Assembly: GCA_949296425.1 (NCBI GenBank)
Contig: CASFPN010000006.1
Coordinates: forward strand, 1 to 64,000
DNA length: 64,000 bases
Origin: an uncultured bacterium
GTDB taxonomy: Bacteria; Cyanobacteriota; Vampirovibrionia; Gastranaerophilales; Gastranaerophilaceae
Reading direction: 5' to 3'
The notes under the pieces were generated by a model that was given only the letters and a program-made list of their open reading frames with translations, was not told the origin of the DNA and did not search any database. The position numbers were made by a program, and so were the translations under genes. This document shows, piece by piece, positions 56,325 to 62,742 of this stretch; the stretch's first letter is position 1; each line of letters opens with the position of its first letter.

Positions 56325-56648
56325 ATGATTTTAACAAACATAGAATCTGTTCCAGGAATGATAATTACCGCACAATACGGTCTTGTAACAGGGAGTACGG
56401 TTAGAGCAAAAAATGCTATCAAAGATTTCGGAGCCGGGTTAAAAAACATGGTCGGCGGTGAACTTAAAAGTTATACCGAGCTGCTGTCCGAAGCCCGTAA
56501 AGAAGCAATTGACCGTATGCAGCAGCAGGCTTACAGATTAGGAGCAAACGCAGTAATTAATGTACGTCTTGCAACTTCATCAATCACAGTCGGTGCGGCA
56601 GAAGTTTATGCATACGGAACTGCAGTAAAAGTTCAGCCGAAAGGATAA
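56325..56648 (+). CDS. YbjQ-family (UPF0145) protein
   Basis: 107 residues, a whole YbjQ domain: SVPGMIITAQYGLVTGSTVR, then GELKSYTELLSEARKEAIDR and GANAVINVRLATSSITVGAA. The fold forms pentamers, with unknown function despite old heavy-metal labels. GGAGG lies upstream. First gene of an operon of five. Confidence 0.9.
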   Translation: MILTNIESVPGMIITAQYGLVTGSTVRAKNAIKDFGAGLKNMVGGELKSYTELLSEARKEAIDRMQQQAYRLGANAVINVRLATSSITVGAAEVYAYGTAVKVQPKG

Positions 56649-56654
56649 GATTAG

Positions 56655-57104
56655 ATGGGTGATATTCTATTTATTTTATTAATTCTTGGGATTACTTTCT
56701 TTACAGGGTCTATTATTGAAAAGAGACATTTTGACAACATCAAAAAACGCGAAATTGCACTTTTCAGACAGCCTATAATTAATTTCGGTGCAAAAACCTG
56801 GAATACAAACAGGAAGATAAAAAAGATTGAACTTGTTACCGGTGAAGCTGTAATAAGCGGTGATTACTTTAAAAATTTTGTTGCAGGCCTGAAAAACTTT
56901 TTCGGCGGCAGACTGACAACTTTTGAGTCTGTTCTTGACAGAGGCAGACGTGAGGCAATACTCAGAATGCGGGAAAAAGCACGCGGTGCAAACTTTATAG
57001 TAAATACGCGTATTGAATCAATTATGCTGAATGATACCTATATGCAGGAAACTGTTCCGCAATGCGCGATAATAGCCTACGGTACTGCAATTACTTATGA
57101 ATAA
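56655..57104 (+). CDS. Membrane-anchored YbjQ-like protein
   Basis: 149 residues: an N-terminal membrane helix (FILLILGITFFTGSII) and then a YbjQ-like domain paralogous to the preceding gene (IELVTGEAVISGDYFKNFVA, GGRLTTFESVLDRGRREAIL, GANFIVNTRIESIMLNDTYM). It starts 6 nt after its partner and overlaps the M48 gene by 8 nt. The pair may form a complex at the membrane. Confidence 0.85.
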   Translation: MGDILFILLILGITFFTGSIIEKRHFDNIKKREIALFRQPIINFGAKTWNTNRKIKKIELVTGEAVISGDYFKNFVAGLKNFFGGRLTTFESVLDRGRREAILRMREKARGANFIVNTRIESIMLNDTYMQETVPQCAIIAYGTAITYE

Positions 57105-57882
57105 AAACCTTGAAGAAAAATATTTAAAAAATATTGAGGATAATGTTAATGTCGGGCAATCTAATGCCGGCATTGAATTTATAATTCTTATTGCAGGCAT
57201 TAGCGCTATATTTGGACTTTTATATATTTTTGCTGACGCTATAGGCGTTTTTTTTATAGACAGAATGTCAAACGAAACCCAGATGAAAATCGAGAATGCG
57301 TTTTCATTAGGGATTAAGCCAAAGACATATGCTAAAAACAACAATATAATCAAACTTGAAAATATAAGAAATAAAATTGTTTCACTGGATAAAAATTTAC
57401 AGGGGAAATCGAAATTTCCTATTTACATAGTTTCTGATAAAAACATAAATGCCTTTATTACCCCTAACGGTCAAATATTTTTTACAAAAGGTATAATGGC
57501 TGAGGTAAAAGACGAAGAAGTTTTAACCTTTGTTATGGCACATGAGCTCGGTCACTACGCACACAGGGATCATTTGAAAAGTATGAGCAGACAAATTATT
57601 GTTTCTGTTATTTCCACAATTTTTACCTCCGGAAATAACGATATAAGCCTGACACTTGACAGCATTTCCGATTTAAACGGGCTGACTTATTCAAGAAAAC
57701 AGGAGCGTGAAGCCGACAGATATGCAAACAGAGTTGTCTACAAACTTTACGGCCGTAATACTGGAGCAGTTGAATTTTTTAAACTTCTGCAGAAAAAAGA
57801 AAAAGCACCGGAGTTTCTTCAATATTTTTCAACACACCCGTCAACAAGCCAAAGACTTGAATTAATACAACAAGAAAGGTAA
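57097..57882 (+). CDS. M48-family membrane metallopeptidase
   Basis: 261 residues. One or two N-terminal membrane helices (FIILIAGISAIFGLLYIFAD), then the gluzincin site FVMAHELGHYAHRDH (H149, E150, H153) and the downstream EADRYAN Glu ligand, followed by STHPSTSQRLE, the typical M48 end. The family degrades membrane or misfolded proteins (HtpX/Oma1/BepA-like). Overlaps the YbjQ-like gene by 8 nt, so production is coupled. Confidence 0.9.
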   Translation: MNKNLEEKYLKNIEDNVNVGQSNAGIEFIILIAGISAIFGLLYIFADAIGVFFIDRMSNETQMKIENAFSLGIKPKTYAKNNNIIKLENIRNKIVSLDKNLQGKSKFPIYIVSDKNINAFITPNGQIFFTKGIMAEVKDEEVLTFVMAHELGHYAHRDHLKSMSRQIIVSVISTIFTSGNNDISLTLDSISDLNGLTYSRKQEREADRYANRVVYKLYGRNTGAVEFFKLLQKKEKAPEFLQYFSTHPSTSQRLELIQQER

Positions 57883-57887
57883 TTTTT

Positions 57888-58796
57888 ATGCATATAAACA
57901 ATGTTTCTGCAAAAACTTCAATAAAATTTATATTATTTTTTGCATTATTTGCAGGTTTATACACAGCCGGAATAATTCTGGCTTATATATATCTTTCTGC
58001 GGATGTACAAAAATCAATTTCCGGATTTTTTTCGTGGGCAACAATGTCGTTTGATGCATTATTAATAGCAAATCCTGAAGACCCATGGTTTTCTTGGATA
58101 CTTTTCATTGTTTTACCCGTAATATTTTACACCGGCCTGATAATTGCAATAGTACAAAGATGTGCAGAACTTAAAAAACTCGCTTCATCATTAAATCTAA
58201 AATCCGTTGATTTTCTGCCAGACATGGTTAAATTTAATTTTAATCGTCCTCAATATAATTTTGTATGCGGATATGGAGAAATAAAGGATTTAAAAATGGT
58301 GCTGCATACTGTCGTCGGCCAAAACAAGTATGGTAGTTATATTGCATTAAATGAAATTGAATTGAAATTTACTGTTCTAAAAGATAAAAAACTTTCCATG
58401 AAAAATACCCCTGTAAGACCAATGAATTTTATTTATAAAATCATTGATTACGGCAGAAAAGTAAACAATTTTTCTTATAAATTTGGCGGTGCAGGAATAC
58501 AGCCGGATATCAAAGAAAAAATAGAAGATTACCTGCAAACAGGTGTAGTATCTATCTTAACAAGTGCTGCAGAAGGTCCTGTTAAGTGGTTTTCCGTAGT
58601 ATTTTTTATTATCGGACTGGTATTTCTTATAGCATTTAAAGATGATATAAATTATTTTTTAGCCAAAGACTTTACGGGGCTTTTACTTCCCGGGCTGCCT
58701 GTAGTAGCATTTATAGGCGTTTCGTTTGTTTTTGACATAATTTTGATTGTTGACAAAATTCAAGAAAAAATTTGCAGAGGTTACAATGAAAGATAA
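57888..58796 (+). CDS. Multi-pass membrane protein of the YbjQ/M48 operon
   Basis: 302 residues of no recognised family. Two N-terminal membrane helices (about 13-35 and 65-90), a soluble middle domain with KFNFNRPQYNFVCGYGEIKD and two C-terminal helices (about 230-250 and 260-285). Starts 5 nt after the M48 gene with an AAAGG upstream. Could be a substrate, adaptor or partner of the peptidase. Confidence 0.62.
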   Translation: MHINNVSAKTSIKFILFFALFAGLYTAGIILAYIYLSADVQKSISGFFSWATMSFDALLIANPEDPWFSWILFIVLPVIFYTGLIIAIVQRCAELKKLASSLNLKSVDFLPDMVKFNFNRPQYNFVCGYGEIKDLKMVLHTVVGQNKYGSYIALNEIELKFTVLKDKKLSMKNTPVRPMNFIYKIIDYGRKVNNFSYKFGGAGIQPDIKEKIEDYLQTGVVSILTSAAEGPVKWFSVVFFIIGLVFLIAFKDDINYFLAKDFTGLLLPGLPVVAFIGVSFVFDIILIVDKIQEKICRGYNER

Positions 58797-60048
58797 AAAA
58801 TTAGACGAAATTTTAGTATATCTTGAAAATATAGTACCGGATGTCACAAAAGAGTCAAGCGAAGATGAAAAACAGAAGATTCTGGAATACATTAACAATG
58901 CCCTTAAATTATATCCGAAAAATATTTATATATTGCGTTGGAAAGCTAGCTATTATCTAGATATAGAAGATTATGACAATGCACTATTACTGTATAGCGA
59001 AATTTTAGAAATTGACCCGAATGACAAAGTTTCAAAAGAATCACTGATACATTGCGCAAAGATGAGATATCCCAAAATAGTAGTCCCCCCAAAAAATTAT
59101 AACCATAATAAAAATATGCACCACTCTCCTGGTTTGCTTGAAAAAATTCCGGCAGGTATTATTTTAACAGCTAAAATCATTACACTTGCAATTGCGATTT
59201 ACTTTTGCTGTCCCTCATTATTTTTTGCACTCAATGATAACAAAATTCTAAACATTAAATATACATCAGGATTTCAAACTATAAAAGTCAATCCTCTAAG
59301 CGAATATGATTACCTTTCAAAACAACAAATTTATAAAATAAGAAAAAAACATGTAAATAATTCGCTCTTTGCAAGCGCAAATTATGAGCCGGATGAACAA
59401 ATTTTCGGTTCAATTGCGGATAACAAACCCTGGTGGGGGACAATTTGCTGTAATCAATTAAACTATAAAGGGGATTATCATGAAAACATTGAAGGGCCTT
59501 CAAAAGTCAGTGCACAAATAAACAACCCAAATGCACTTGTTGGTTTAAGTCTTCCATTCCTGCCGTGGGAGGAGAGTTACAATCAAGAATTCTGTACAGG
59601 AGAGTACGGTCGATTTCTGCCACTGTCAATTCAATACGATAAAAAAGATAACTTAATTGTTGCTAAATACAAACTTACAGAACAATTTCTCAAATATCGA
59701 GCAAGCGTAAACGGTAAAATGACACGATATCCTATACAATTGTCAGGGCTGAATGCAAAAGATTTCGGTTATCACTACGTTTATATATACGATTTAAAAA
59801 ATGTAAGCATGTTTTCCAAAAACAATAATATTACCGAGGACGTAAAAAGATTTAAGGATTATATACATCTTGGCGGAAGCTGCGGTTATAAAGACGGATG
59901 CAACAATATTTCCCCGTTGCAATATGATAAAATAATTACGGTTACCAATCTTCCTGCTGAAATAAACCTTAAACTGTGGAGAAATAAACCAGCAAACAAA
60001 TTTATAAAAGCTGATATATATTACAGAATTATATTTGATATAAAATAA
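58786..60048 (+). CDS. TPR-like membrane protein ending the YbjQ/M48 operon
   Basis: 420 residues. The first 90 contain TPR-like helices (NIYILRWKASYYLDIEDYDN, ALLLYSEILEIDPNDK), then one membrane segment (ILTAKIITLAIAIYFC, about 125-150) and an extracytoplasmic beta-rich domain with scattered Cys (WGTICCNQLNY, GGSCGYKDGC). GAGG before ATG 58786 sets the start, which overlaps the preceding gene by 11 nt. No family recognised for the C-terminal domain. Confidence 0.65.
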   Translation: MKDKKLDEILVYLENIVPDVTKESSEDEKQKILEYINNALKLYPKNIYILRWKASYYLDIEDYDNALLLYSEILEIDPNDKVSKESLIHCAKMRYPKIVVPPKNYNHNKNMHHSPGLLEKIPAGIILTAKIITLAIAIYFCCPSLFFALNDNKILNIKYTSGFQTIKVNPLSEYDYLSKQQIYKIRKKHVNNSLFASANYEPDEQIFGSIADNKPWWGTICCNQLNYKGDYHENIEGPSKVSAQINNPNALVGLSLPFLPWEESYNQEFCTGEYGRFLPLSIQYDKKDNLIVAKYKLTEQFLKYRASVNGKMTRYPIQLSGLNAKDFGYHYVYIYDLKNVSMFSKNNNITEDVKRFKDYIHLGGSCGYKDGCNNISPLQYDKIITVTNLPAEINLKLWRNKPANKFIKADIYYRIIFDIK

Positions 60049-60073
60049 CCCGCCTTAAAAAGACGGGTTATTT
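60043..60073. terminator. Bidirectional terminator between the TPR gene and rpsR
   Basis: AAATAACCCG (60043-60052) pairs with CGGGTTATTT (60064-60073), followed by TTT; the minus strand has matching T. It serves the two convergent operons. Confidence 0.85.
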
Positions 60074-62193: not shown

Positions 62194-62742
62194 AGAAGTT
62201 CTGAGGTTCTGAAACAAGTTCAGAAAGGCATACCCGAGTGCTTGGACAAAACAAAGCGATAATAAGTAGATATTTAAGGATTTTTGAACACTGAAAAAAG
62301 CGGCTTATGCAATACCGTAAGCTGTCACGGATGGAGCGGCTACGCTTTTTCTCATATTGCCAATCCATGTTAAGCAAAACAGGTGCGAGGGAAAAGTTCT
62401 GAGGTTCTGAAACAAGTTCAGAAAGGCATACCCGAGTGCTTGGACAAAACAAAGCGATAATAAGTAGATATTTAAGGATTTTTGAATACTGAAAAAAGCG
62501 GCCTATGCAATACCGTAAGCCGTCATGGATGGAGCGGCTACGCTTTTTCTCATATTGCCAATCCATGTTAAGCAAAACAGGTGCGAGGGAAAAGTTGTAA
62601 GGGTCTGAAACAAGTTCAGAAAGACATACCCGAGTGCTTGGACAAAACAAAGCGATAACAAGTAGATATTTAAGGATTTTTGAATACTGTAAAAAGCGGC
62701 CTATGCAATACCGTAAGCCGTCATGGGTGGAGCGGCTACGCT
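62194..62742. repeat. 198-bp tandem repeat, about 2.8 copies
   Basis: Copies at 62194-62391, 62392-62589 and 62590-62742 (partial) are nearly identical, each with the TCTGAAACAAGTTCAGA stem, CGAGTGCTTGGACAAAACAA and GGAGCGGCTACGCT. A 198-nt unit is a multiple of three, so an antisense frame stays open across it, but there is no ribosome site or plausible protein. It fills the gap between dapF and the DUF721 gene, overlapping the latter's last codons. Confidence 0.92.

Follow-up and report, generated by a model that had tools for sequence, protein, structure and literature searches.

Five open reading frames follow one another on one strand between positions 56325 and 60048 of the window, the stretch of 64,000 nucleotides of DNA analysed here. 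Their coordinates were checked, and the intergenic gaps are, in order, of about +6, -8, +5 and -11 nt, which bears out the five tightly packed genes, spaced or overlapping by a few bases, claimed in a preliminary description of this DNA. The genes and the hairpin that follows them are:

56325..56648, plus strand: Y1, soluble YbjQ-family protein of 107 aa (PF01906), first gene of the triad
56655..57104, plus strand: Y2, membrane-anchored YbjQ-family protein of 149 aa (transmembrane helix and PF01906), second gene of the triad
57097..57882, plus strand: M48 zinc metalloprotease of 261 aa (PF01435), with an 8-nt overlap with Y2
57888..58796, plus strand: MEM, accessory four-helix membrane protein of 302 aa with a putative PH-like insert, outside the conserved core
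58786..60048, plus strand: TPR, accessory protein of 420 aa with N-terminal TPR-like helices, a membrane segment and a Cys-bearing outer domain, partner of MEM
60043..60073, plus strand: rho-independent terminator hairpin (MFE -12.5 kcal/mol, z -4.0), with a T run next to it

As the start of the TPR gene, ATG at 58786 is preferred over TTG at 58747. The terminator hairpin lies 3' of this gene, and co-transcription of all five genes is therefore plausible. The five genes make up two modules, a core triad formed by Y1, Y2 and the M48 protease, and a separate MEM–TPR add-on. Y1 and Y2 are the only YbjQ matches in the whole genome, which harbors two other, weak M48 matches elsewhere. Further along the window (62196-62742), a tandem array with a 198-base unit (2.8 copies, 96% matches) is located upstream of a dapF-like gene on the minus strand.

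Y1 and Y2 are indeed the two YbjQ paralogues, one of them membrane-anchored, that had been proposed: against the PF01906 gathering cut-off of 23, Y1 scores 128.3 bits (2e-37) and Y2 65.9 bits over residues 53-147 (6e-18), the latter being preceded by an N-terminal transmembrane helix at about residues 3-21. In an alignment of 12 sequences, residues G18, E22, H25 and E33 of Y2, near the exit from the membrane, are invariant. Relatives of Y1 with a solved structure are 2gtc, 1vr4 and 1y2i, and both Y1 and Y2 belong to YbjQ/UPF0145, the family of E. coli YbjQ and of these three structures. The solved members are lone soluble proteins of unknown function; the window instead combines two paralogues, one soluble and one membrane-anchored, with a protease. 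One paper ascribes thiamin phosphate synthase activity to YbjQ (PMC7084401). The protein meant there is presumably YjbQ, a member of a different family. YbjQ structures are described as pentameric and with an RcsF/DUF1471-like fold (PMC4092069). By analogy, and judging from gene adjacency and fold family only, Y1 and Y2 most likely form a (hetero)pentameric YbjQ assembly in the cytosol.

The product of the third gene matches PF01435 at 8e-30 (104.6 bits, cut-off 20.3) with an intact zinc site, HExxH plus E..AD, in agreement with its earlier reading as an M48 protease. Residues H149, E150, H153, E203, D207, H247 and R253 are invariant in two alignments. Motifs were counted by means of regular expressions, and the six M48 proteins missed by the pattern all keep HExxH and E..xD when inspected by eye. 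The protein consists of a conserved N-terminal tail, one transmembrane helix and the catalytic domain, and the chain ends after the latter. The tail has the consensus M-K-Y-x-P-[KR] ... [VI]-N-[VI]-S ... P-L-[KR]-[ED]-F and is kept from cyanobacteria to Campylobacterota, a loosely defined core pattern around its Asn being found in 81 of 89 cases.

The nearest catalytic-domain sequences are those of the periplasmic M48 proteases LoiP (53.6 bits) and BepA (49.6 bits), and the nearest structures are 3c37 and that of BepA. Nonetheless, the protein belongs to neither group, as these scores lie far below the cut-offs of 365 for LoiP (NF052399) and 570 for BepA (NF052400); it has no C-terminal TPR of the BepA type, and its translation contains no Cys, so that the lipobox Cys of LoiP is absent too. 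It differs from both in being anchored in the membrane and in carrying a conserved tail predicted to be cytosolic. The structure 3c37, the nearest one in the PDB, was also considered as the triad protease itself and discarded, since the match covers the catalytic part only. HtpX shares the M48 zinc site and is membrane-bound, but it has several transmembrane helices and a cytosolic active site, whereas the window protein scores 41.7 bits against the HtpX cut-off of 369, shows one strong transmembrane peak before the catalytic domain and has a predicted periplasmic site.

The triad is conserved far beyond the source genome. Y1, Y2 and M48 occur on the same strand and in the same order in 88 of 88 intact triads from about 12 phyla, a collection made up of two differently drawn sets, the larger of which was chosen by similarity. 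The spacing between Y2 and M48 has a median of -3 nt, and the two genes overlap in 56 of the 88. Scanning of species genomes with an alignment of Y2 retrieved 518 relatives. Of the 80 loci most similar to the Y2 of the window, 73 have all three genes; several of the M48-less loci stop at a contig edge. According to record titles and tree taxonomy, the lineages bearing the triad are Cyanobacteriota, Melainabacteria, Omnitrophota, Nitrospirota, Nitrospinota, Thermodesulfobacteriota, Myxococcota, Campylobacterota, Pseudomonadota, Kiritimatiellota, Cloacimonadota, Spirochaetota and Bdellovibrionota, of which several are represented by one metagenome bin each. Named isolates among the carriers are Desulfosarcina widdelii, Xenococcus PCC 7305 and Desulfoluna limicola. 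In a tree of the concatenated triad several phyla group together, while Pseudomonadota and Thermodesulfobacteriota are split, and inheritance with some transfer is therefore likely. Conservation of the neighbourhood beyond this genome, on which the preliminary description had staked its proposal, is thus found for the first three genes. No conserved fourth gene was found beside the triad across phyla, and hence no neighbour points to its substrate. In the open-access literature, no account of a YbjQ or heavy-metal-binding protein paired with an M48 or other metalloprotease was found.

In order to offset the ranking by similarity, Y2 alone was used for sampling in three other phyla, where it is present in 8 of 148, 10 of 398 and 4 of 150 genomes. 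For the phylum of 148 genomes, which is of the Desulfobacterota type, a more permissive threshold (1e-6) applied, and 7 further genomes there have weaker YbjQ matches only. Besides the centres, M48 adjoins Y2 at 17 of the 19 loci of these samples, the two exceptions being a decayed triad (L193) and a Y1–Y2 pair near a contig end (L192). The decayed triad, at L193:2791-3512, comprises a single YbjQ open reading frame resembling a hybrid of Y1 and Y2, with fragments of M48 behind it. Among the 148 genomes, the eight M48 proteins of at least 258 bits are those of the eight Y2 genomes, each encoded directly after Y2, and the ninth-best M48 reaches 136 bits and is devoid of the N-terminal tail. The chance of this eight-for-eight coincidence is 2e-13 by simple counting, a figure that is too small, because the genomes are related and the profile includes the sequence of the centre itself, both of which raise the true one. 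Y2 and the tailed M48 thus co-occur one-to-one in the phylum tested, and the first three genes cluster far beyond chance.

The orientation of these proteins in the membrane can be predicted from the charges around the Y2 helix. Lys and Arg residues average about 4.9 after the helix versus 0.4 before it, with an excess on the C-terminal side in 77 of 80 homologues (77 to 1 in a sign test that ignores relatedness); because of the positive-inside rule, the YbjQ domain of Y2 is predicted to be cytosolic. One Y2 homologue (L170) harbors an additional N-terminal helix and a linker, which is consistent with the same orientation. The charges flanking the helix of M48 give no verdict on its own topology (23 versus 23). 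This is provided instead by one family of Pseudomonadota, in which Y2 lies inside an open frame of 441-459 aa in all 17 Y2-bearing genomes, as counted by open-frame length, indicating a Y2–M48 fusion. In the ten of these 17 whose features were read, a transmembrane peak near residue 4 is followed by the YbjQ domain, the tail motif LPDDG[VI]NIS, a second transmembrane peak near residue 167 and HExxH at residue 295. This order places the YbjQ domain and the tail on the same side of the membrane and the catalytic domain on the opposite one. In some fusions, further peaks of hydrophobicity occur near residues 265 and 313, but they are weaker (1.5). These are probably helices of the soluble M48 fold, since the matching part of 3c37 is from a solved M48 structure; if the membrane were crossed once more at this point, the sidedness would be different. 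Taken together, the Y2 charges and the fusion, on which the sidedness of M48 depends, give good support to a layout in which we infer that both YbjQ domains and the M48 N-terminal tail are cytosolic and the catalytic domain is periplasmic.

The reading that we favour, with somewhat better than even confidence, is that the triad is a conserved envelope-protease module in which a YbjQ assembly holds or gates a periplasmic M48 protease through its N-terminal tail. A single N-terminal helix would hold Y2 in the inner membrane; its YbjQ domain would face the cytosol and combine there with soluble Y1 into a (hetero)pentameric assembly. This assembly would dock on the cytosolic tail of M48 and scaffold or gate the protease; cleavage of membrane or periplasmic proteins would thereby come under the control of a signal from the cytosol or the membrane. 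Docking is proposed because the tail is conserved and its cytosolic partner is nearly always encoded next door and is sometimes fused to it, and holding or gating because YbjQ relatives are pentameric and the tail is conserved. The sequences themselves establish the families, the intact active site, the conserved gene order, the one-to-one co-occurrence in the phylum tested and the fusion; the oligomer, the gating, the substrates and any stress role of the triad are what we infer, and a quality-control role is a reasonable guess.

The same layout has been described for OMA1, an M48 protease of the mitochondrial inner membrane, whose N-terminal tail is on the matrix side, equivalent to the cytosol, and whose M48 domain is on the outer side; the tail is needed for the stress response (PMC8027119). 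The likeness lies in this layout, a tail inside and an M48 domain outside, which for the triad is deduced from the Y2 charges and the Y2–M48 fusion. The tail of the window type is also a specific conserved sequence rather than merely a positively charged stretch, and in the proposed scheme the triad has a dedicated YbjQ regulator. We know of no YbjQ partner for OMA1. More tentatively, and with rather less than even confidence, the triad might constitute a widespread bacterial signalling protease, in which a hetero-pentameric YbjQ ring anchored by Y2 grips the M48 N-terminal tail and passes a cytosolic or membrane-state signal to the periplasmic protease. If so, bacteria would have a counterpart of OMA1, and YbjQ/UPF0145 would gain its first defined function. 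YbjQ/UPF0145 is found in bacteria and archaea, and no established function for it was met in the open-access literature searched; the conserved, sometimes fused, partnership with M48 gives the family a testable role. The triad also offers a bacterial model for the control of an M48 protease across the membrane by a cytosolic tail, an open question for OMA1 (PMC8027119).

It could be argued that the function of the module lies in the YbjQ pair, for instance as a membrane-tethered ring organising or sensing the membrane, and that M48 is not gated by the YbjQ assembly but acts on it or on its clients, for their maturation, turnover or quality control. Y1–Y2 pairs without M48 do exist, as read from the sequence at each locus, in Acinetobacter, Haliovirga and loci L144, L166 and L170, and the YbjQ pair therefore has some role apart from the protease, whereas in the phylum tested every tailed M48 is accompanied by Y2. 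However, the YbjQ and catalytic domains are predicted to lie across the membrane from each other, so that only the few external residues of Y2 could be cleaved, and the conserved cytosolic tail suggests docking and not catalysis; we thus regard this explanation as unlikely. Much less probable still is a metal homeostasis module in which YbjQ would bind a heavy metal and metal stress would call the zinc protease into action. Its starting point is the Pfam name of PF01906, 'putative heavy-metal-binding', but over 88 triads the consensus of Y1 and Y2 contains no conserved Cys and a single near-invariant His, H25 of Y2, which is invariant in the 12-sequence alignment. Judged from Cys and His conservation a metal-binding role is thus unsupported, although other ligands are possible, and the conserved neighbours include no metal gene.

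The remaining explanation, that all five genes encode one machine, had been put forward in the preliminary description, and it depends on the two accessory proteins. MEM matches no family in Pfam or NCBIfam; its AlphaFold2 model (mean pLDDT 81) supports the four long helices claimed earlier for this membrane protein. The insert of the model gives weak structural matches to PH domains, with Z about 7 and 7.7 at best, a level that may reflect a common arrangement only, and MEM may thus carry a PH-like domain. In the TPR protein, the single TPR is weak and below Pfam cut-offs, and the model (mean pLDDT 64) is of low confidence outside the helices and too poor in the outer domain for a fold comparison. 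Cys 222, 270, 366 and 372 of the Cys-bearing outer domain described earlier are invariant in a first alignment of ten sequences, Cys 222 being only nearly so in a second set.

In favour of one machine are the tight spacing, the terminator shared in the source genome and the retention of all five genes by most relatives in the genus, in which Y1, Y2 and M48 lie between an Orn/Lys/Arg-type decarboxylase gene and rpsR-ssb-rpsF, with MEM and TPR after the triad. Yet the triad occurs without MEM–TPR in L033, L040, L085 and L092, rpsR following it directly in L040 and L092, and in all other genera and phyla, the other genera of the family and the other families of the phylum keeping it in different surroundings. 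Conversely, MEM, with matches in 24 of 244 genomes of the phylum, nearly all from the same family, occurs with TPR but without the triad at the apparently equivalent locus L212, in a genome (G088) with no YbjQ match, and the two are fused to each other away from the triad in L215, L217 and L218. MEM–TPR is therefore a separate Gastranaerophilales pair, found with or without the triad and merely sharing an operon with it here, and the five-gene machine is rejected on gene distribution: it is largely refuted, and the least probable of the explanations weighed. What stands of the earlier proposal of YbjQ oligomers next to a protease is the association of the first three genes, which extends across phyla and is sometimes covalent. 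In several relatives (L034, L039, L043, L044), prepilin-like genes (AFTLAEVLITLGIIGVV) are found at varying places beside the operon.

YbjQ genes also occur in other settings. The Y1–Y2 pair without M48 of Acinetobacter baumannii (L224:2571-3363) lies directly 3' of the efflux genes adeJ and adeK, and that of Haliovirga (L223) is carried on a large plasmid. Sister genomes encode a second YbjQ type with a zinc-ribbon-like C-terminal tail, CxxC...CxxC (L050:4270-5468, L051:5862-7060 and L101:3635-4318), often as a tandem pair and adjoining a gene for a HAD-like hydrolase. In other members of the phylum (L096-L100), two or three YbjQ domains are found per chain, the set of L100 being located beside a CRISPR-like repeat array.
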